Shown one piece after another: positions 3,990 through 28,600 of a stretch of DNA of 31,992 bases; positions within the stretch are counted from its first letter, which is position 1, and each line of letters opens with the position of its first letter. The notes beneath the pieces are model-generated. The model was given only the letters and a program-made list of their open reading frames with translations. It was not told where the DNA came from and did not search any database. The translations under genes were made by a program, and so were the position numbers. This stretch comes from Chromera velia (lineage: Eukaryota > Sar > Chromeraceae): contig JAHBMJ010001352.1 in assembly GCA_018398765.1 (NCBI GenBank), positions 1 through 31,992 on the forward strand, read 5' to 3'.

Positions 3990-4803
3990 GTCCATCTGCC
4001 GAGTAGTCCTTCATTCTTTCGCTTGAGAGCGGAAACCTCCTCGCCCGATGGCTCGATCGAAGAAAGAGGGAAGAGCCTCAACTGACAGCAGCGGGTCTAG
4101 CTCCTTTTTGCGTGAAGGTGCCAGGGTGCGTCATTCGCTTGCCTACCGCTAAATTGAATAGGAGCGATTGGCCAGGGGGACCGGGAGAGATTGAACACAG
4201 TTTTTTTGTCTTGTCCTGTGAGGGTTCTTATGTGTTCTTGTTCTTCGTTTCATGCGTCGTGACTCGATCATGCCACGCAGCTCGATTCTTCCTCTAGACA
4301 GACGTATGCAGGTCTCTCTCACGAGACAGACCTGCAACAGGAGAAGGCAGCATCAGAGTGACAAAGGGGTTAAGGAGAGAAGAGAACAGCTCACGTTGAA
4401 TAGTCGCACACAAGAGAGATGGTTGAACACTGGCGATGTGTGCACGCAAAACGCACTTACATGCGGTGTATGCAGACAAGTCGACTGACAGATATTGCTG
4501 TCGGTTTCCGGTGACGCCGACGCAAAAGAGATGACTAACTTGCTGTCGAGAGACGTTTGCATCGAACAGGTCGACTGAAAGAACTTTCAAGTTGTGAATT
4601 GAAATCCAAACAAACAGTACAACGGAACTCTTTGCCATCAGAACCTAGGGGTAATTTTTTTTTAAAAAAAAATGTTATTTTCGCTTTTTTGTTTTTTGTT
4701 TTTTTTCTGTTGTCAAACTAAAAAATATGTTGTTTTAGTGTTGTTGATGTGTTATACAAATCAAAAAGTGGTGTTTAAGTGTTATTATACTATTGTTTCT
4801 TTG

Positions 4804-5035
4804 TATAAGGAATTCACATGTCAGAACAGAGTTCGGGGAGGAGAGAGTGAGCGAATGCGCCTCTCCTTGAATAAATCAATGTGGATCAATCAGTTTCTCC
4901 TATACGGTGCATGCACAGTTTGTAGTGTTGCAGATTTACATGCATAGCTTGTAGCGCGCTGAGCCCAGGCCGAAGTCCCTGGGACCGCGGCCGTGAAAGG
5001 CCGGCGTTAATCGACCCCGGACGCAATCTCCAACA
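4804..5035 (-). repeat. 3' LTR of the copia element
   Basis: 232-bp long terminal repeat, left copy on the + strand and 3' LTR in element orientation. It matches 10547-10778 with six differences. At five of the six this copy has A or T where the other has G or C. Confidence 0.93.
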
Positions 5036-5090
5036 ATCACCCCCTGACTCGAACATTCACTGGAGAGTCACCTCTTTTCTTAGCTTTCGA

Positions 5091-7448
5091 TCAACATGTC
5101 TTTGCGAAATCTACCATTCCTCTCTTCACATGCCCTTCCTTCTTCGCTTCAACCTGAGGTGCTTGACTCCCTCTCTCCTTTTCTAACTTGTACTTTGTGT
5201 GTCTGTCTGCCCGCTGCCGATCAGTAGAAACCCAAAGCACCCGCGCCTTCAACGCTCTCAGCTCCTGCTGCATATATTTCAACAATCCATCCATCCGAGG
5301 CTCTCGCTTCGAATATCCACTCTCCAATTGCTTCATAAGAGGAGCGCTGTCTATATAAATCTCTACCTCCAGCGGCTTCATCCACAACGCCTCTGCAAGA
5401 CGCTTCCATTGAAAAGATTGTTTCACACCATCTACAAGCGCACAAAGCTCTGCAGAGGTCAAAGAAATCAGCTTCCTTTTGATTCGTTTGCTCTTCCATG
5501 CCACCAGATTCGTTCTTCTCATTCCCTCAATCTTTTCCTTCTTGTCAACCAAGTAAGCCTCAAAGCCCCCTCTTCCTTCACAACGGGAAAGAGAATACGC
5601 AGCATCCACAAATAAAACAAGCTTTGGATCAATCATGCCCTCAAAGCGCAAACTGTCGTTCTTTTCACGAGCTCTGATGAGGGCAAGCAAAGCAGCAACA
5701 AGCTTTGAACCAGTCGGGCGGGAACTGTAACAAGACAACTCACTGAAAACAAAAGGAAGATCGGCAGACGTCCGACACACCCAACCAAGCACACCCATCA
5801 CTTTCATCATCACCGCAACCAGGTCTTCTTCTTTCTCTTCTTCCCTCTCTTCATTCAGCATCTCAGGGGAAAGAGACTTGCGAGGCAAATCGTTTGTCTG
5901 AACAGGAATGGACTTCAAGTATGCCTCCTGGCTGATCTCAAACCCGCTTTCATTCTTTCTCACCTCCAAACCCGTGTAGCCCATTTCACCCCCTGCAGAG
6001 AGAATTTCTGGCTTATCCATTTTCAAACGTTGTCTCAAAGGTTCAAAATCACGAGCAGAGTCGGCAGAGAAAATGAGTAAATCATCAACGTGAACAGCCA
6101 TCACTGCTTTCACCTTCTTCTCTTCATCCTTCAACACAAAGATGCTCTCAACGATTTCCTCCCATCCTTCTTCTGCTGCAATCTGTTTGAAATGCTTTCC
6201 ATACAGACGAGGGGCATCTTTCAATCCATACATGGCTCTCTCTAACTGACTGATAACTCCAGGTGCGAATCTTTCTGGGGAACCCGTCGGGACGCGTCCT
6301 GGCAGCTGCACAAACACCTCATAATGAATAGATGCAGTCAGGAACGCAGTGCGCACATCTGACTTACCGATCGTCTACCTCTGACTGGATGCAAACGTAA
6401 AACAAACCAAAAGAGCCCACCAAGCAGCTGTCCCACTGTACATCTCAACGTTCTTTTGATCATCTTGAAATCCTTTACACACAAGACGGGCTTTCGGCTT
6501 TCTCTCTTTCCTTTTCATCTTCCATATGAGCACCCATCTGGTTTTCATTGCTCTTCTCTTCTGTGGTATTCTTCCTCCGTTTATTTTTAACACTTTATTC
6601 TCCTCAAAGCTTTTCAATTCCCCTTGTATCGCTTCATCAAAGAGGCCTTTCTCTACCTCCTCTTCCTTTGCATCAATGTGCCCCTTCCTTGGGTTCACAT
6701 GCTTCATCATCTGGTCGACCACTTTTTTATCCACCATAAGTCTCTGTGGTGCCTTCTTGAATCCATTTCCTTCTCTCCTCACTTTCTTCCTTTCACCCTC
6801 CTTACTATCGTTCTGTGCTCTCTGCACCCTCTTCCCTTCCTGTGCCCCCTGCACTTTTTTATCATCCTGTGCTTCCTGCACTCCCTCCGTTTCTCTGCTG
6901 CCTTGCTGCTCTCCTTCACGTGCAAGAAAGCTAGCAAAGGCTGCGGCCCCCCCAGACTCCCCAAGCAAGTTGAGGCCAAACAACGAATCGTCATCTGGAA
7001 TGTCTGGCAGGACGACTTCTCCTTCTCCCTTTTTCTCTGCTGGCTGCGCTGCCTGAACAGGTTCGCGACCCTGCCCTGACTGCTTTTCCTTTTCCTCTCC
7101 ACCCCCCACCCCCTGCTGCTGACTTCGCAACTCCAGATGGCCTGCCTGAAGTTGAGAGCCTGCTGCAAATGGAGGAGGGAAAGGGACAGGTGCATAAACA
7201 GAAGACACAGACTCTTCCACAACACAATCCAGCTGCCTGACGGCCGCTGACGGAACAGAGTCGGGAAAGATTGCCTGCGACTTGGAGGAAGAGACAACAG
7301 CTTCAGGGTCCGCACCCCCTGCAGCAAGAACATCGACCTCTCTGTCTTCATCGACATCGAAATCGGAAAAACGATCAACATCGTCAGCAAGTGCAGCTGC
7401 TAACTCAGACACTCCATTCAAAAAGTCAGAAGACACATTCAAACCATA
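5091..7448 (-). pseudogene. copia linker, reverse transcriptase (RVT_2) and RNase H segment
   Basis: The N-terminal part (about 6650-7448) is an acidic and Gln/Lys-rich linker with VQ.AQ repeats, usual between copia integrase and RT. RT starts near 6560 with LKSFEENKV and MKTRWVLIWKMK, continues to KARLVCKGF, is cut by TAG at 6375, and resumes TIGKSDVRTAFL. MYGLKDAPRLYGK follows near 6210-6235. The catalytic box is HVDD (about 6081-6092) where most copia RTs have YVDD. RNase H follows with LFVDAAYS, SAELCALVDG and IYIDSAPL, placing its acidic residues between about 5320 and 5640. The last about 60 codons are basic and low in complexity. Apart from the one stop, the RT and RNase H motifs are intact. 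Confidence 0.9.
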
Positions 7449-7451
7449 TCA

Positions 7452-8429
7452 TTTAATCAAAGACACAGCACTCGGATACATACGCAAAGGTCTCCATCCC
7501 TTCCCACTGTCTGTCTTCACAAGAACACACACGACAGAGTCGCTTTCGACTCCAGCAAAGAACCCTTCCTTTCCCCTGACAGGCACAGCAGAAGAGGGAA
7601 TCAGACGAAGGTCAGTCACCAGAACACGATCACCGACAGAGATGGGGGAAATGGGACAAGCAGCCTCAACACTAAACACAGATGCATTGGGCGACTTACC
7701 CATCGCAGATGAAACACATTCATTTAAAGAATCAATCACACCACTTAACAACCACTTCACACAATATTTCGGCAAATTCAAATCCGCAAGCAACTTCTAG
7801 AGCAATCTTTTCACTGTACGATTCATTTTCTCTACTTGCACTTGAGACTAGGGAGTGTAGATGCTTCCTTTCTTATGAAAGATAGACTCCTGATCACACA
7901 TATGCTCGTACTGTCCCTTCTTTTGACCCACAAATTCTCTTCCGTTGTCAGTGCAAACCGTTGCAGGCTTTCCTTTCACTTTCAGCTTCTCATCCAGTCT
8001 CTCCCATCTTCTTACCCACGCAGTCAGATGTCTTACTGCCTTCCCTTTCGAAGGCAGAACCATGCTAGAAACAAAACGAGTTGCAGCATCGACAATCAAA
8101 GACACAGGGGTACCACCAGGTAAAAACATGACATCCTGATAAATGACTTCATTAAATTCCTTTGCTTGCATGCATTCCTGGCTCTTCTGAGGAATACGAT
8201 GCATCACAGCATTCATATGCTTGCACTGTCTGCACACATGCCTCACTTGATCACACGCCTCTCTGCTCACACGCGATATAATGCCTTTCTCTTTCATTGT
8301 TTCATACAGTCGCACACTAGTCGCATGCCCAAATCTCTTATGCCATATCAAAACCTCCCTCGCACTCATCTGACCTTCAGAAGGGAAGCTCACCCTCCGC
8401 GATCGATGCGCACCTAACCGAATTGGCGG
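7452..8429 (-). pseudogene. copia integrase segment (GAG-pre-integrase plus rve core)
   Basis: The pre-integrase zinc-binding motif is visible as WHKRFGH then CRQCKH (about 8210-8345). In the catalytic core, Asp in IYQDVMF is near 8133-8135, Asp in CTDNGREF near 7947-7949, and the Glu in QVEKMNR near 7830-7832, giving the D-D-E triad with about 38 residues between the last two. TAG codons at 7848-7850 and 7797-7799 flank the Glu segment; the first sits where TPQ is normal. The rest (about 7452-7796) reads through DLNLPKYCVKWL into a C-terminal domain with GDRVLV and ends at TGA 7449-7451. Confidence 0.9.
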
Positions 8430-8432
8430 TCA

Positions 8433-9089
8433 CTCCTGCGGGGCCCCCTTCTGACCTCTGTGCTGGAAAAACGCCCACTCACGTGTAAGAGGTCTATCCT
8501 TTCTATTTATGTTCAAACACACACAAAGGGGGCCATGCTTCACTGCCGGACTCTTTAACTGCACCTCTCCATGTACACTCAAAACTAGAACGCCTTCCTC
8601 CTCTTTTATACGCGTACAAAAACTGCCACCCCCTTTTTCAGGGAGCTCCACCCAGAATGGCTCATGCACTTTCTGTAAGCGGAGACCATACATACTCATA
8701 AGAGAGACTGGCACAGACCGAGAGAAAGCTCCATCCAAACGTGCCATCTTCCTACCTCTATCCACACATTCGACTCCAGGGAGATCCACAGTCACGTCGC
8801 TCTCTGCTCGTGCGACGTCTCCTTCAACCCCTACAAACTCACTGTCCGTCTCCCTTACCTCAACCACACAGGCCTCGATGTCTCTGTTAAAGAAATGCCG
8901 GCTGCATCCAGAATCAACCACCGGCTTCTTCACCACCCATTTTATCCCACCCCCTCTCGCTCCACCTGCAAGCCCCATAGCATGTGGTCGCAGTTTTGTC
9001 ATATCCTGCCCGGGACGGCTCTCCCCCTCTTCTTCAGCAAGCAACACAAAGCGATTGAAAACCCGTACGCCGGGGGAATGCGCTGCACT
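8433..9089 (-). pseudogene. copia aspartic protease segment
   Basis: The segment lies between in-frame TAG 9090-9092 and TGA 8430-8432. The active-site motif VVDSGCSRHFFN (Asp codon near 8913-8915) matches the copia retropepsin signature DSG(A/C)S.H. The downstream LPGVECV and a Val-rich region fit the family's flap and core, although with low similarity. The following part (about 8435-8650) is the usual linker to the pre-integrase domain. Confidence 0.82.
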
Positions 9090-9107
9090 CTACACCCCCG
9101 AGTGTGG

Positions 9108-10502
9108 TCATCTCCCTTCCTGTCCCTTAGAGGAGGACGAGGAAGACTGCTGCTGCTGGCTTCTGTTGGGATCTTGGCTGGGGGGAGGGGGAACCCAAGG
9201 GCGAGGCTCGATTCTGGGCTGCCCCGCACGTTTGCGCGCACAGTTCTTCTCGAAGTGGCTCGTGTCCTGGCACCACCAGCACCTCTTTGGTCCCCATGGC
9301 TGCTGCTACTGTTGAGGGGGAGACTGTTGGGAGGAGCGCTGACCATTCTGTCTGTTCCCCTGATTTCTGAATCCACCAGATCCCCAACCCCGTCTCTACT
9401 GGCCTCCGAAAGCTCTTTCTCTGCCCCCACTCTGCCTCTGTCTCGCTTTGATCTCTGCATCTCGATCAAAGGACGCAAACCACTCGAGCTCCTTCTTCAA
9501 AGTGGCATAGTCAATCTGTCTAAGATCCAGCTGCCCCCCCAATCCAGAAAGTTTCGATCTGAGGGAGTTGACGAGCTTCATACGCTGGTCGTCCGTGAGG
9601 GCGTTGACGATCATGATGACCTTGGCGGGATCTGCGATCTCCTACTCTGCGTCGTCGGAATTGAGGAGGAGATCCTCGAGTCTCTAGTCGATCTTCGCAA
9701 ACGACAGCACCACACCGCTTGGGATGACGATACGACCGTTCCGATCACGGTGGTCGAGGAGCCATGGGAAGACCTGCACACGCTCCTGCACAGCTAGCTG
9801 TATCGCCAGCAGGGTCGAGGAATACTCCTGCTTCATCTTCTCTACAATATTCTCAGGGTTCACCCGCTTCCGTCTCCATCTCCTCACATCTCTCCTGAAG
9901 GCCCGAGCATCACTTCCTGCCTTGTTCAGCGCGACGATGATGTTGGATCTCCACTCCTTTGTCGACTGGAAGTGCTTCCTCTGTAGCTGCACATTGGAGA
10001 ACTCCCCCCACTGCGACACAAAGTCGACAATCTCCTTCTTTCCAGCGAACTTCGGGCAGGCGGTCAGGTCCACTTTTTTCGACTGTTTCGACGATCTCTT
10101 CTTCCTGCATGCGGAACCCACTCTCTGAGCTGCAGAGTGGCGGGAAGACGCATCGGAAGATCCACTCACATCAGACGAGTTAGAGTGGGAGGGAGACGGG
10201 TCCTTATCCGAGAAGAAAGCTACGGCATCGAAGGGCTTTCGGACTTTCTGAGCCTGAACGACTCCAGGTGCAAATAGAGAAACAGGGGAAATTCTTTCTT
10301 TCTTTTCTGCCACTGCAGCACTGGTTCGACTGGGTAGAATCCATCTGTCTAACGAGTCTTCTACTCTCTCCTCCCGCTGGCCTGGAGGCGCAGCATCTCT
10401 TCGATCAAACTCTGTACTGAGTCTGGATACTTCAGCGCTGATCGGTTCAAGAGCATCATTGAGTAAGCCCCTGAAAAAGCTTTTCATGTCTTCAAAGTTC
10501 AT
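9108..10502 (-). pseudogene. copia gag segment with CCHC zinc knuckle
   Basis: The ATG at 10500-10502 starts MNFEDMKSFF shortly after the 5' LTR. The N-terminal half is Ser-rich and basic (KKRSSKQSKK). The UBN2-like gag core follows, ending in VNALTDDQRMKLVNSLRSKL (about 9545-9610). A single CCHC knuckle, CWWCQDTSHFEKNC (C-x2-C-x4-H-x4-C, 9240-9281), confirms gag. TAGs at 9684, 9642, 9396 and 9306 and TGA at 9108 break the frame. The one at 9306 lies inside a glutamine run (QQ-stop-QQ), consistent with a CAG to TAG change. Confidence 0.88.
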
Positions 10503-10546
10503 TTTGACAACAAAGTGGTAACAAATCAGAGACTGACACACTGATC

Positions 10547-10778
10547 TATAAGGAATTCACGTGTCAGAACAGAGTTCGGGGAGGAGAGAGTGAGCGAATG
10601 CGCCTCTCCTTGAATAAGTCAATGTGGATCGATCAGTTTCTCCTACACGGTGCATACACAGTTTGTAGTGTTGCAGATTTGCATGCATAGCTTGTAGCGC
10701 GCTGAGCCCAGGCCGAAGTCCCTGGGACCGCGGCCGTGAAAGGCCGGCGTTAATCGACCCCGGACGCAATCTCCAACA
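10547..10778 (-). repeat. 5' LTR of the copia element
   Basis: 232-bp long terminal repeat, right copy on the + strand and 5' LTR in element orientation, ending next to the CTTTG target duplication (10779-10783). It contains a GC-rich dyad-bearing segment (about 10705-10765, GGGACCGCGGCCGTG...GGCCGGCG) conserved exactly in both copies. Confidence 0.93.
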
Positions 10779-11252
10779 CTTTGTTATAATGATAAATGAA
10801 TGTTGTACAACTGTCTAGATAACTGTTGCTTTTGCATGTGTTGCAAGGTGTTGCATATGGTTGTTATGTCTTCATGGAGGTCATCATTAAAAAGTTAAAA
10901 AAAAAAAATTGCCTTAGAGCTATAGACCATATTTTTTTTTTTTTTGAAAATATTTGAAAATTACCCCTAGATCAGAACAGTTACAAAAGAAACGTACAAA
11001 GCGTAGAATCAAAGAAGGAGTTTTACCTGGAGTTTCACCTAGGCGTCGGCTAAAGAAAGAAAAAAAAGATCCCCCAAAACTCTTTACTTTTTTTCTTTTC
11101 TTTTTTTTTTTAGTCAAACAACTGAGTTATAACTCAGTTATAACTGTTGTTCGAGTGTTGCACAAGTGTTGTTCACGTGTTGCACAACTATTGTTAAGTG
11201 TTGTTTAAGGTAAAAAAGTAAAAAAAAAAAAAAAAAAGACCTCCTCTGATTG

Positions 11253-12253
11253 CTAGGCGTGGTTTATATATACATACATTCTTACATACATTCTGGACTT
11301 GGAGAATATAATGTATACACAATGTATATAAAGATTATGTTAAAAAAAAATAGTAATCGGCCTATTATTAAATAAATTTTAGTAACATATATACTAATAT
11401 ATATACTGTATATGAAATGTCCTATTGCCAGTTTATAGCCAAGAAGCTTGGCCCTCTATCTCAGTTTCTATCCGGAACCCGTCTTCACTGCAATGATACC
11501 AGTCTTCTCATCATGCAAAAAAAAATATCTGTTTTGTATCCTCTGCAATTGTTGGCTTCCTATCTACCCAGGAAAGACGCACCTAGGGAATGAACCACAA
11601 CACTTTTCCGAACTTAAAATTGGCAGAGTGTGCGGCAATAACACTTTCATCAAAGTCATTAATAAGCTGCTGCCCGCCTACGAAGTACACAACTCCGTCT
11701 TTATAAAATGCATCCCATCCCTCTTCCAAGGTCTCAGCTGCATCGGATTCCTCGAGGAGAGTCTGCATGTCTTCTTTCTTGGATTTTCTCTCTTCCTCAT
11801 CTTCCTCTTCTTTATTTTTGTCCCCCTTATCTTCATCTTCTTCATCAGATGCACGAGACTGCTCTGACTGCTTATCCTCGCTCTCAAAGGGTTCATCCGA
11901 GGAACCCGTGAACTCATCCTCATCCTCCTCCTCATCTTCGATCTCCCCCCCTTCTTTCTCTCCACCCCATTTCTTCTCAGGGACATAAAATCTCATACCG
12001 CGGAACTGCACATTCTCTGTATTGATTTCAACCTTCTTTGCCTCTGCCTCAGCTTGTATATAAATATGATATTTATCCTTCATAATCTCGTTATGCTTCT
12101 TGCACCGGTCTAAGTGCTGGGTCATGTAACGGTTGGCAAGAATTCACTCACCTGAGTTGGACTCAGGCTCCCTATAAATTATGAAAACTTTTATAACATT
12201 AGTTTACATATATTACATATATGCATACATACATTCTTGATAGACAGAATATA

Positions 12254-12290
<37 letters not shown>

Positions 12291-12298
12291 ACGCCTAG
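11253..12298. mobile_element. hAT-like element of 1,046 bp nested inside MITE 2
   Basis: TIRs CTAGGCGTGGTTTATATATA (11253 onward) and the inverse ending CCACGCCTAG at 12298 are flanked by a perfect 8-bp duplication, TCTGATTG, at 11245-11252 and 12299-12306. After the TIRs both ends carry TATA and CATACATTC-like repeats, and the right end has a long (TA)n run (about 12256-12285). It shares the first eight TIR bases (CTAGGCGT) with the element it entered. It contains one ORF (11583-12125, minus) but nothing resembling a full hAT transposase with a C-terminal dimerisation domain, so it probably depends on a transposase supplied elsewhere. Confidence 0.87.
11583..12125 (-). CDS. Acidic 180-residue ORF inside the 1,046-bp hAT-like element, function unknown
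   Basis: I do not recognise this protein with confidence. It opens MTQHLDRCKKHNE, and the frame just upstream reads NRY, so the start resembles the second half of a BED zinc finger (N....HL..C..H), a domain at the N terminus of hAT transposases. Residues about 55-125 are almost all Glu, Asp, Lys and Ser. The C-terminal 50 residues are ordinary globular-like sequence (GWDAFYKDGVVYFVGGQQL). A good donor-like CAG/GTGAGT lies upstream at about 12150 on the complement, so an upstream exon is possible. It is most likely a cargo or truncated transposase ORF; it could also be decayed and not expressed. Confidence 0.4.
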   Translation of the reverse strand: MTQHLDRCKKHNEIMKDKYHIYIQAEAEAKKVEINTENVQFRGMRFYVPEKKWGGEKEGGEIEDEEEDEDEFTGSSDEPFESEDKQSEQSRASDEEDEDKGDKNKEEEDEEERKSKKEDMQTLLEESDAAETLEEGWDAFYKDGVVYFVGGQQLINDFDESVIAAHSANFKFGKVLWFIP

Positions 12299-12357
12299 TC
12301 TGATTGCTTACTTTTTTTCTTTTTTTTTTTTTCTTTAGCCGACGCCTAGAGTTTCAC

Positions 12358-14399: not shown

Positions 14400-14650
14400 C
14401 TAGGCTCTGCACTCCATAAATAATAAAAAGAAAAAAAAAGAAAAAAGTTTCCAATCTTTTTTTTTTTTTTATTTATCAACCAAACAACACATAGTTTTTA
14501 TGCAACATCCCGTGTAACACTCCTGCAACACTTGAACAACAGTTGTTTGCCTGTTGACTGCCTTGATAAATAAATAAAAAATCTATAAAAAAAAAGTTTT
14601 TCCGATCTTTTTTTTTTTAAAGTTTTTTTTTTATGTAGTACAGAGCCTAG
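14400..14650. mobile_element. hAT-like short TIR element (MITE 3), aged
   Basis: The left end is CTAGGCTCTGCACT at 14400 and the right end is the inverse of CTAGGCTCTGTACT, ending at 14650. The flanking 8-mers GGATAGGC (14392-14399) and GAAAAGGC (14651-14658) agree at six of eight positions, consistent with a worn 8-bp target duplication. The 251-bp interior shows T and A tracts around a core that, read on the complement, contains AACTGTTGTTCAAGTGTTGC, nearly identical to MITE 2. No ORF is present. Confidence 0.75.
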
Positions 14651-14708
14651 GAAAAGGCTCAAGGGAGGAACAAATCAATCCATATCGATCAATCTACATA
14701 TGAATTAA

Positions 14709-14941
14709 ACCTTCCTAAACCTAAGTACCACTTAAAAAAATATAATCAAGATTATCTCTATCTGCGGTATCGTTTTTTAAGAGACCGTCCATGCTTGCGG
14801 CGTACATAGTTAAGACACCGTCCAGATATGCGGCCTTGGCTTTCAAAACACCATAAATGATCCGTGCCTGCGGCGCAGACTTTCAAGCTTATCCAAAAAT
14901 GCGGCTTCATCTTTTAAGTGGTAGTTAGGTTTAGGGAGGTC
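14709..14941. mobile_element. Short TIR element, possibly Mutator-like, with internal about 34-bp repeats
   Basis: The ends are inverted copies of about 28 bases: ACCTTCCTAAACCTAAGTAC at 14709 and, on the complement of the right end, GACCTCCCTAAACCTAACTA; both continue CACTTAAAA. The nine-base word ATGAATTAA lies at 14700-14708 and 14942-14950, which would fit a 9-bp target duplication as made by Mutator-like elements. The interior is built of about five degenerate units of 30-40 bp, each starting TGCGGC or TGCGGT and most ending near ACCGTCCA or ATCC. It is non-coding. The superfamily is inference. Confidence 0.68.
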
Positions 14942-14950
14942 ATGAATTAA

Positions 14951-16314: not shown

Positions 16315-18447
16315 TCACACAACGTACGGAACGAAAATGTAGGGCACCTTCTTACAATACTCCACCCAGTCTGTTCCGTATTTCTTTGCCAGCCTTTCTT
16401 GGTCTCTCCATACTCTGTGGCTGAGGACCGCAAGGAAAAAGAAAAAGTAAAAGAACGGGAGGAACGACCGAACACCACACGCCAACCCCCAGCAGAGAGC
16501 CATAACCAGGTCCGCTGTATAGTTGATCTTTCTTGCCACACCAAACCAACCCGAGACGAGAAGGGTTGAACCAGCTTTGGTCTTAATGAACTGAGGGTCC
16601 TTCAGAAGCGCCCAGGGAAGCTGCGGAAATGCAAACGGTCTGGCTTTGTACGTTCCTGCCTGTTGCATCCGAAAGAAATTCTTTTGGGCATTTGAGGTGT
16701 CCCAAACGTAGTAGGCAGTCAACAGGAGGGCAAAGAGGCCGATGCGCACCCAGAGGGGGGTCTGGTCAGCAGACTCGTTGTGGAGACAGTACAGGCTGGA
16801 GATGCAGTAGGTGAACGGGACGCCTGCAAAGGGAGGGAGAAGGAGGAAATCGGAATTCATCCATAAACAGACAAACAGACTGTCATGCATGCACGGAAGG
16901 AGAGAGCTGGCCTTGCAAGGAGACTCAGAGCTTGAGCTTGAGAGGGAGTTGTGGCTAGACGTGCCGAGGTATGCAGAGGAAAACCAGGAGCGGGAGAAAC
17001 GGGAAGGTTGTGTGGATGGGACTGCAGGCGAGCGTGCGCGTTTCCATCAAAGGCGTATGCAACCGAAGTTTCGCTGCTAATTTCGTTCGCTTATTCATCA
17101 GTTGGTTCATTTGACCGACCGACCGACCGACCGAGGAACCGACGGATGGACGGACCTGCAAAGTTCCAGAAGATGAGCATGAAGCCCCACTTCTCATAGA
17201 AGATGTCCCAGGTGGTCGGAATGCACTCCTCACCCTTCATGCAGGCGTTTGTGTACAAACCATGAGCAAGGAGGAGGAACCAGAGTTGCCATCCCACATG
17301 CCCAGTCTGCACGGTTTGTTTCAAAGTCAGAAAGTAACGCAGAAAGAAAGAGTGTGCAGGAAATTGAACACAAAGGACCAAGGAAAAACGGCAGAGAGAA
17401 GATGACAGAATGCAGTCGGCATTAGGAAGAGCCATCGTAAGGGGAAATGTGCTGGCTGGACGAGAAGAGGAAAAGTTAAAAAAACTAGGGAGGGGATTCA
17501 TTGAGACGGGCGAACACATTCTTTATCTAGAGAAAAAGATACAACAAGAAGTGAAATGCATGCACAGGAGAAAAAAAAAGGGCCTCCGCGAGTCTCTGGA
17601 AAGGGAAAAGGTCTTTTTGAAGTCAGACTTTTCCGTCTCTTTCCCTCCCCTGTCCTCTCACTGCTTTCTTTCTTTCTTTCGTTCTTTATCAGAAGCGAAC
17701 CTGTTCCTGTCTCTCCAGACAACACGACAGTGTGATGAAGAACAAAAGGACCCAGGGCACCCGAATTTCCGAAAACATTTTCAGGTCTAGTTTCCCCCCC
17801 AGAAGGCGGGGGTTCAGAGGAGCCCCCATAAACAGATCGTAGACAAAGTTACCAGACATACGATGAGGCGTCCCGAAAAAGACTGTCCATAAATAAGTTG
17901 CAGCCGTACTTGCCAGCCCAAAACCGATTGCTACCGTCATCAAGGGCCCAAAATTCCGAATCAACCACGTAAGAGGGAACACCCCTGACAAATGAAGCAC
18001 TGCAGCTGTCCCCAATGTCGCATACCAACACGCGACCCCATTACAGCAGTAGTCTAATCGTTTCCCCTTCAGCGAAGGTACGGGTAATCCCTGCACCATA
18101 GGGCCCGGCAGAGTTACTGCCAGCACAGCCTCGAAGACCACAAACAAACCGTACACACCGACAGCCTCGAAGGTAGGAACACACGAGTAGAGCATGGAGG
18201 TATAGGCCTCAAAACTGTGCGTGAATCCCGGCACTATCAGGTCCCCTCGGTTGTGTGCGAGGCACACGAAGATGTATATCATAAGGCATGGGAAAAATCC
18301 CATCAAAATCCCGACACTTACAGGTCCCCCGAATTCATAGTGGACCTCCGAGTCGATTTTCTTCTCAATCTCATCAGCAGTCGGAGGGGGGCTGCTGCTG
18401 CTGCTACTGACAGTGTTGCCCTTTTCTGGCTTCGTCCGTGGCGGCAT
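16315..18447 (-). CDS. ERG4: ERG4/ERG24-family sterol reductase, most like delta(24(28))-sterol reductase
   Basis: Three exons on the complement, 18447-17701, 17306-17156 and 16823-16315, join in phase to 468 residues, close to the usual size of ERG4. A Ser/Pro-rich start (about 35 residues) precedes YEFGGP and about eight or nine hydrophobic spans. The motifs LNPRL...[10 protein letters not shown] (from residue 211), GHVGW...[48 protein letters not shown] and the C-terminal [15 protein letters not shown] are family signatures. The enzymes are NADPH-dependent reductases of the ER membrane in sterol synthesis. ARKINYTAD and KGEE...TWDIFYEK fit ERG4 (C24(28) double bond) better than ERG24 or DHCR7, but the substrate needs a tree or assay. 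Both acceptors are TGCAG. It is divergent from BBS5, 770 bp away. Confidence 0.92.
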
Positions 18448-27809: not shown

Positions 27810-28280
27810 GCACACACACAGAGAGACAGAGAGAGTCAGACACACAAAAAGATATAATACTGATATATATAGATACAAACGTCCCTGCTACCAGCCACGC
27901 TATTATACTTGACTAATAGATTATCTATAGGAGTCAAGTCTAAACCTAAGTCTAAACACAGTTTCAAAACTAACTAGAAAACTATGTTGCATGCTAGCTA
28001 ACTTGAAAACTTCTCTGAATTGAACTAAAAGTTGATCGAAAATCTATATACAGCTCCTAACGGAAAAGGTAAGGTCGTGGGAAGACATGGAGAGCTCATA
28101 GGTGGTTGAGATAGTTTGCCAGTGTGCACATATTTAGCGGACATATAAAGTTTAGTTTAAAACTGCAAAATGATACCCAAATCTGTAGACTCTCCATATG
28201 CATTAAATTACTACCAGCTTTATATAATCTTATCATAGATCTCATCTTATGATTTAATTTATTTGTTGTTTTATTTAATC
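26502..28280. other. Non-coding DNA downstream of the RING gene
   Basis: No gene is supported. The first part is G-rich and T-rich low-complexity sequence (26560-26890); the middle (26890-27660) is mixed, with a few short open frames lacking recognisable content. A (CA)n repeat follows at about 27775-27820, after which composition turns clearly AT-rich (27840-28280). An inverted repeat ACTTGACT/AGTCAAGT lies near 27907-27940. Confidence 0.5.
27775..27820. repeat. (CA)n microsatellite
   Basis: About 46 bases of CA repeat with one TACG interruption, followed by GA-rich sequence. It marks the border between mixed-composition DNA and the AT-rich island to its right. Confidence 0.93.
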
Positions 28281-28288
28281 GGTGCAAG

Positions 28289-28592
28289 TAACATCTATGA
28301 GTCGGCTTGCTATGTCAAAATAGTGAACATAGTAAAAATAGTGACTATTTTTACTATTTGCTACATTGAATAGTAAAATAGTTCATAATAATTAGCTATT
28401 TCTACTATTTTAATAGTAAAATAGCACCATTTTACTATTTAAATAGTAAAACTAGCTAACTATTTTCTAACTAGCCTAGTAGTATTTTACTATGTGACGT
28501 AGCAAATTTTAAAAATAGTAACTATTTGAACTATTTTTACTATTTTTTCAACTATTTTTACTATTTTAAATAGCTTGCCGACTCATAGATGA
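28289..28592. mobile_element. Short TIR element built of ACTATTTT-like words, 8-bp target duplication
   Basis: The duplication GGTGCAAG is perfect at 28281-28288 and 28593-28600. The ends read TAACATCTATGAGTCGGC from the left and, on the complement, TCATCTATGAGTCGGC from the right, so the TIRs match over about 15 bases after the first few. They continue as TTGCTAT or AAGCTAT. Nearly all of the 304-bp interior consists of the word ACTATTTT and its complement in both orientations, spaced every 10-20 bases. There is no ORF. The 8-bp duplication suggests a hAT-type mechanism, although the TIRs do not start with CTAGG like the other elements here. Confidence 0.8.
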
Positions 28593-28600
28593 GGTGCAAG

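Follow-up and report, generated by a model that had tools for sequence, protein, structure and literature searches.

Contig JAHBMJ010001352.1 of the Chromera velia assembly GCA_018398765.1 (31,992 nucleotides; C1350), analysed over its entire length and referred to here as the window, carries a stack of transposable elements at positions 4637-12357. The stack comprises two nested pairs. Three of the four elements have CTAGG-type inverted ends and are flanked by perfect duplications of 8 bp; the fourth, a copia retrotransposon, is flanked by a perfect duplication of 5 bp. In one pair a miniature inverted-repeat transposable element (MITE 1) is interrupted by the copia element, and in the other a second such element (MITE 2) is interrupted by a 1,046-bp member of the CTAGG-ended group (the inner element). 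We put the probability of this nested-stack explanation at about 0.94. Nested insertions whose duplications are intact reveal both the relative order of events at a locus and the exact ends of the elements, and this allows families to be defined in the absence of a repeat library. In addition, the stack anchors the CTAGG group, comprising at least two MITE families and a gene-carrying long form, with no transposase identified.

Borders and order of the nested insertions

The borders were read from the sequence and then checked by a script. All four elements have the exact borders that the initial annotation had proposed, and the four duplications it had described as perfect, ATCAGAAC, CTTTG, AGTTTCAC and TCTGATTG, are identical left and right. 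The ends of MITE 1 (CTAGGGGTAATTTT), MITE 2 (CTAGGCGTCGGCTA) and the inner element (CTAGGCGTGGTTTA) each show an inverted match at 14/14 positions. With the inserts removed and one copy of the duplication kept, MITE 1 measures 346 bp and MITE 2 257 bp. The gap between the two MITEs, previously given as about 60 bp, amounts to 68 bp, or 52 bp without the duplications. The features are as follows, with the strand where one applies and the type of evidence in brackets.

4637-4644, MITE 1 duplication, left, ATCAGAAC (border check)
4645-4803, MITE 1 left part, 159 bp, copia target CTTTG included (borders; uninterrupted relatives)
4799-4803, copia duplication, left, CTTTG (border check)
4804-5035, minus strand, copia 3' long terminal repeat (LTR), 232 bp (border check, LTR comparison)
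5036-10546, minus strand, copia internal region (stop positions, domains)
5091-6356, minus strand, copia reverse transcriptase part, RVT_2, E 6.4e-15 (domain search)
7848-8393, minus strand, copia integrase part, rve and gag_pre-integrs, both under the curated cut-off (domain search)
10547-10778, minus strand, copia 5' LTR, 232 bp, 6 transitions relative to the 3' LTR (LTR comparison)
10779-10783, copia duplication, right, CTTTG (border check)
10784-10970, MITE 1 right part, 187 bp (borders, relatives)
10971-10978, MITE 1 duplication, right, ATCAGAAC (border check)
11031-11038, MITE 2 duplication, left, AGTTTCAC (border check)
11039-11252, MITE 2 left part, 214 bp, target of the inner element included (borders, relatives)
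11245-11252, inner element duplication, left, TCTGATTG (border check)
11253-12298, minus strand, inner element, 1,046 bp, CTAGG ends (borders; relative at C1977:12699-16313)
11583-12125, minus strand, 180-codon open frame in the inner element (match to the frame of the longer relative)
12299-12306, inner element duplication, right, TCTGATTG (border check)
12307-12349, MITE 2 right part, 43 bp (borders, relatives)
12350-12357, MITE 2 duplication, right, AGTTTCAC (border check)

A scan of the whole window for exact repeated 8-mers flanking inverted ends with at least 11/14 matches yielded four hits, three of them at 14/14, compared with 0-3 hits and none at 14/14 in each of 30 first-order Markov resamplings (500-base blocks). 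The ends are also abundant in the genome, for which one assembly of 177.8 Mb in 4,040 contigs was searched. The end CTAGGGGTAATTTTCA, with at most one mismatch, was found at 76+84 sites (0+4 for the control read backwards), CTAGGCGTCGGCTAAAG at 130+139 and the variant CTAGGCGCCGGCTAGAG at 125+124 sites (0 for the control in both cases); about 100 sites were listed of each total (160, 269 and 249).

The existence of uninterrupted MITE copies elsewhere had been set beforehand as a test of the nesting, and such copies were found for both MITEs. For MITE 1, 40 of 156 first-look candidates were scored, giving 44 rows, of which 39 cross the copia insertion point uninterrupted; the other five are the two halves of the window copy and three short end matches. 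For MITE 2, 40 of 489 first-look candidates gave 88 rows; among the first 40 of these, 39 cross the insertion point of the inner element and the fortieth is the window itself, the remaining 48 being partial, end-only or reversed matches. The nhmmer profiles, built from first family alignments with mixed orientations, served to locate copies and not to count them. The relatives have ends of the same type and are flanked by 8-bp duplications of their own. Among 49 CTAGG..CCTAG structures collected from the fetched DNA and the window with up to three duplication mismatches (the three of the window counted in), the duplication is perfect in 25, has one mismatch in 14, two in five and three in five; these loci were picked as best matches, the sample is not random and its weakest rows contain chance. 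Both MITEs are thus short, with inverted ends, a duplication of their own and many dispersed relatives. Two relatives carry inserts at other points of their length (C234, L074; C1733, L098; L-numbers, e.g. L064, denote stretches of genomic DNA taken from the contigs, which have C-numbers).

The reverse history, in which the larger units are original, the MITEs are their deletion products and the copia element or the 1,046-bp stretch belonged from the start to the interior of a long CTAGG element, gains some appeal from the apparent origin of short members by internal deletion, the 1,046-bp element and one of 371 bp sharing their ends with an element of 3,615 bp. For the stack itself we regard it as extremely improbable, as it is already contradicted by the relatives that are uninterrupted across both insertion points. 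Moreover, copia has its own LTRs and 5-bp duplication within MITE 1, the inner element has its own ends and 8-bp duplication within MITE 2, and the inserts vary between MITE copies (an LTR retroelement, a mariner-like element and a TAGTGAC-ended element, all classed by eye).

Several results weigh against the nested-stack explanation. Identity is only 78-87% to MITE 1 in the 39 uninterrupted rows of that family and only 75-84% to MITE 2 in the 39 of the other. An empty allele of the locus was not found, the left flank (4400-4636) matching only itself in the one assembly, with the right flank left out of the search. Likewise, no transposase could be tied to CTAGG ends.

The duplications of the inserts themselves, together with the uninterrupted relatives, bear out the insertion order that the initial annotation had proposed inside each pair, and this order is as good as sequence can make it. 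The order of MITE 1 relative to MITE 2, and of copia relative to the inner element, is not readable from it. In the nested-stack explanation, MITE 1 and MITE 2, as non-autonomous DNA transposons of one CTAGG-ended group, would have inserted 68 bp apart, each insertion making an 8-bp duplication. From the length of these duplications we infer that a transposase provided in trans made cuts staggered by 8 bp, and a single source may have mobilised the CTAGG elements. Later, MITE 1 would have received a Ty1/copia retrotransposon, with a duplication of 5 bp, and MITE 2 the 1,046-bp member of the CTAGG group, with an 8-bp duplication of its own.

Recurrence of nesting and likely clustering of the elements

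Nesting is a repeated outcome in this genome. Among the matches listed for the ends CTAGGGGTAATTTTCA, CTAGGCGTCGGCTAAAG and CTAGGCGCCGGCTAGAG we counted by hand 46 exact-ended pairs (10, 16 and 20, respectively), i.e. convergent pairs in which both ends equal one listed sequence with 0 mismatches. Thirty-eight of them hold no insert, one is a fold-back form and seven hold inserts (C1350, C797, C857, C1711, C2438, C1968 and C3437). Inserts occur in 1/20 pairs for the younger-looking variant CTAGGCGCCGGCTAGAG compared with 5/16 for the other MITE 2 ends. The arrangement of MITE 1 and copia is paralleled in C1968, where a MITE with the perfect duplication CCAAAAGC is host to an LTR retroelement (LTRs of 433 bp; gypsy by eye). 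Two candidates were set aside: C332, with 12 kb between ends that come from different copies, was excluded from the pair count, and C619 (L082) has a fold-back form instead of an insert.

By eye, a MITE copy in C3437 (L076) is split by a mariner-like element with ends CACAGTAYGGTTAGGAGT and target TA, and one in C857 (L075) by an element whose ends, TAGTGAC, fit the hAT end consensus and whose duplication is CCAAAATC. We considered whether inserts favour one point within the MITEs but do not claim it, the observation being post hoc, with small numbers and uncertain gap placement: inserts start near base 36-72 of about 257 in five of seven MITE 2 relatives (L075, L078, L080, L098 and C1968; exceptions L081 and the window) and near 136-159 of 346 in three of five MITE 1 relatives (the window, L006 and L076; exceptions L074 and a short insert in L003).

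The short gap between MITE 1 and MITE 2 had been taken as a sign of a permissive insertion site. Among about 324 sampled elements, in which insert-bearing copies may count twice, seven pairs have a gap below 200 bp (C1350, C320, C3896, C423, C443, C940 and C2328, the last first merged and later shown to be two elements), where a uniform model predicts 0.1-0.4. Only three of the seven consist of two elements each with its own duplication, namely the window, C2328 (L064) and C940 (L077; read by eye, one duplication 7/8); the remaining four include incomplete copies or lone ends. Close neighbours that each have their own duplication thus recur above the uniform model, and this much of the earlier proposal stands, without this site being singled out. 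Chance in a genome full of such elements could also account for the 68-bp spacing: both families have many members (156 and 489 first-look candidates), a fourth CTAGG element is present in the window at 14400-14650, and more close pairs would be expected if insertions were confined to a small fraction of the genome, seven pairs having p 0.034 at an expectation of three. Set against this, the seven pairs exceed the uniform expectation, and we consider chance a possible, though not the probable, cause. Because exons and other closed regions lie outside the uniform model, the excess is likely and not proved; clustering of CTAGG elements is likely, and no special site is shown.

The fourth CTAGG element lies about 2 kb to the right of the stack, with ends CTAGGCTCTGCACT / CTAGGCTCTGTACT, internal CAACA/TGTTG repeats as in the MITEs and a duplication GGATAGGC / GAAAAGGC matching at 6/8 positions. 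Next to it, a short element at 14700-14949 has the duplication ATGAATTA on both sides and inverted ends AACCTTCCTAAACC / GACCTCCCTAAACC (12/14); hits of equal strength occur in the resampled windows, but by eye the inverted match extends over about 30 bases. Elsewhere in the window, an AT-rich fold-back element at about 28260-28600 shows, by eye, inverted ends CATCTATGAGTCGGC and an apparent 8-bp duplication GGTGCAAG, and a sterol reductase gene lies in pieces on the minus strand at 16315-18447 (ERG4_ERG24, E 4.6e-54 and 2.2e-46).

The copia element and its age

The retrotransposon in MITE 1 was assigned to copia because the integrase part (8393-7848, scoring below the cut-off) precedes the RVT_2 part (6356-5091; E 6.4e-15) on the minus strand. 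LTRs with a 5-bp duplication were found in several copies, i.e. in the window and in seven other two-LTR pairs, whose duplications are perfect in five and have one transition in two. The coding region of the window copy is a single frame with no net frameshift and with 11 internal stops between 9686 and 6377, and the copy is therefore unlikely to make its proteins. Eight of the stops are TAG, three TGA and none TAA, a composition that fits a transition excess.

The insertions had been called fairly young on the grounds of their perfect duplications. This argument is weak, since perfect duplications are common in the group (25/49) and bound age only loosely. The divergence of the copia LTRs does suggest relative youth, with differences at 6 of 232 sites (Kimura two-parameter distance 0.027), the fewest among the eight two-LTR copies examined (6-15 differences); this age is relative to the seven other copies only.

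Across the eight copia LTR pairs, transitions outnumber transversions by 79 to 4, and 31 of the 79 fall at CpG and 27 at CpA; in the LTR pair of C1968 the ratio is 14 to 0. Mutation of retrotransposons resembling repeat-induced point mutation was considered and is not claimed. In its favour, the LTR bias exceeds that of the duplication mismatches (10 to 4, by eye; Fisher p 0.009) and that of one DNA-element pair (78 to 17; p 0.002). Against it, six DNA-element pairs favour transitions as well, from 96 to 40 up to 97 to 10 (2.4-9.7 per transversion), and comparisons of MITE 1 show no transition excess (527 to 620) where those of MITE 2 do (557 to 149). The dinucleotide ratios of copia also speak against it, TA/AT being 0.49 and (CA+TG)/(AC+GT) 1.44, close to the values for the remainder of the window (0.38 and 0.63; 1.36 and 1.25).

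The CTAGG-ended group and known transposons

The inner element is more than a plain MITE, as it matches, at its ends and in its central part, a 3,615-bp element located at C1977:12699-16313 (L096:50-3664), which has ends matching at 12/12 and a duplication at 7/8 positions. Two stretches of this longer element have no counterpart in the inner element, and the latter reads as an internally deleted form of the former. Other relatives with both ends measure 371 bp, with the perfect duplication GGTCATGC, and 969 bp, with a duplication of 7/8. A further relative of 4,288 bp at C2854:77524-81811 (L069, L073), with CTAGGCATGATTTATA / CTAGGCGTGGTTTATA-like ends and, by eye, the duplication TTCCAATC / TTTCAATC, holds a LINE-like (long interspersed nuclear element) reverse transcriptase piece (RVT_1, E 9e-11), a further nested insertion. 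The stretches read contained no autonomous source with CTAGG ends; leaving aside elements with a recognised retroelement insert, the longest CTAGG element in them is the 3,615-bp one, with its one long frame. C1864 and C1968 were rejected as long autonomous elements, both holding LTR retroelements (judged by eye from repeats and frames, with no domain search).

The open frame of the C1977 element lies on the minus strand at L096:1636-2943; it spans 435 codons from stop to stop, or 423 from the first methionine, and its C-terminal part is matched by the 180-codon frame of the window (11583-12125). The simple ratio of nonsynonymous to synonymous change (dN/dS) between the two is 0.23 over 173 codons, and three other comparisons gave 0.40, 0.44 and 0.67; because the transition excess lowers dN/dS, a clear indication of past selection comes from the lowest value only. 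The 435-codon protein has no match in Pfam or NCBIfam, and a comparison with PDB returned two chance-level matches only (E 0.31 and 0.81). By eye it contains a C..C..W..H..C..H stretch; such a stretch resembles the zinc fingers of some transposases. A protein search of the genome with the frame gave 15 rows, all at places present in the DNA search with the inner element, and thus no host source of the frame, and no second gene was recognised in the open reading frame lists of the 3,615-bp element.

The label "hAT-like" given to the inner element by the initial annotation is not established. The end consensus of hAT elements is YARNG and their duplications are biased towards nTnnnnAn; duplications of 8 bp are compatible with hAT, P and a number of other groups. 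Membership of the CTAGG elements in the hAT group is conceivable but somewhat doubtful. The 8-bp duplications are a hAT trait, hAT dimerisation domains (PF05699) are present at seven places in the genome, and 22/50 sites of the perfect duplications have a T at their second or an A at their seventh position (p 0.007 relative to 27%; relative to the base content of these duplications, about 31%, the excess would be weaker). In contrast, the three elements of the window have CTAGG at all six ends, with T at position 2 instead of the A of YARNG, and the 435-codon frame is without a Pfam match. In addition, none of the seven hAT places, all of which were scanned (L070, L071 extended by L089, and L090-L094), is tied to CTAGG ends in the fetched stretches, which may not always reach the element ends. 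As an autonomous hAT source they were rejected: the one CTAGG end pair, in L094, is weak and has two duplication mismatches, L071 shows a lone, unpaired CTAGGC over 7.1 kb, and the inverted ends of L090 are of another kind. MULE (Mutator-like element) transposase, sought with the single model PF10551, had 0 matches in the genome and was positive in 3/14 control genomes; for the KDZ transposase of the Zisupton group (PF18758) the 0 matches are uninformative, the control genomes being silent too.

A rather long shot is that the CTAGG elements with 8-bp duplications form an undescribed DNA transposon group, perhaps a new superfamily, in which the 435-codon protein of the long members would be maintained by selection and may be the transposase or an essential partner. 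Among the 12 papers listed of 24 matching CTAGG, inverted repeat and 8-bp terms, no title or abstract opening names such a group, which is no proof that it is unpublished. The whole words MITE and TIR are absent from the main text of PMC4501334. PMC4818426, on Tol2, contains all three search terms, as a match of words only. The identity of the CTAGG transposase would separate an odd branch of hAT from something undescribed; of the leads obtained here, the gene-carrying 3.6-kb element holds the most promise.

Among known systems, the CTAGG elements resemble hAT MITEs in their 8-bp duplication, short inverted ends and many short copies, and differ from them in having CTAGG instead of YARNG ends and no linked hAT transposase. 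With two-gene or gene-carrying DNA transposons, such as PIF/Harbinger elements with ORF1 plus transposase or Pack-type elements, they share a long member with an open frame that is not a recognised transposase, whereas no second gene was recognised and no host source of the frame found. The retrotransposon agrees with Ty1/copia in the integrase lying upstream of the reverse transcriptase, the RVT_2 domain, the 5-bp duplication and an LTR that starts with TG. Ty1/copia LTRs usually end in CA, whereas this one ends in TA on the coding strand, and this copy has 11 internal stops. Nested insertions as such are already well known: PMC6911290 gives 1,491 nested pairs in 12 plant genomes, and nested insertions in MULEs are the subject of PMC3903597. 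As in the nested transposons of plants (LTR retrotransposons, MULEs), elements lie inside elements and the order is readable from the interruption, the difference being that the hosts of the inserts here are short CTAGG elements with no superfamily assigned; the stack is a clean but ordinary example of nesting.

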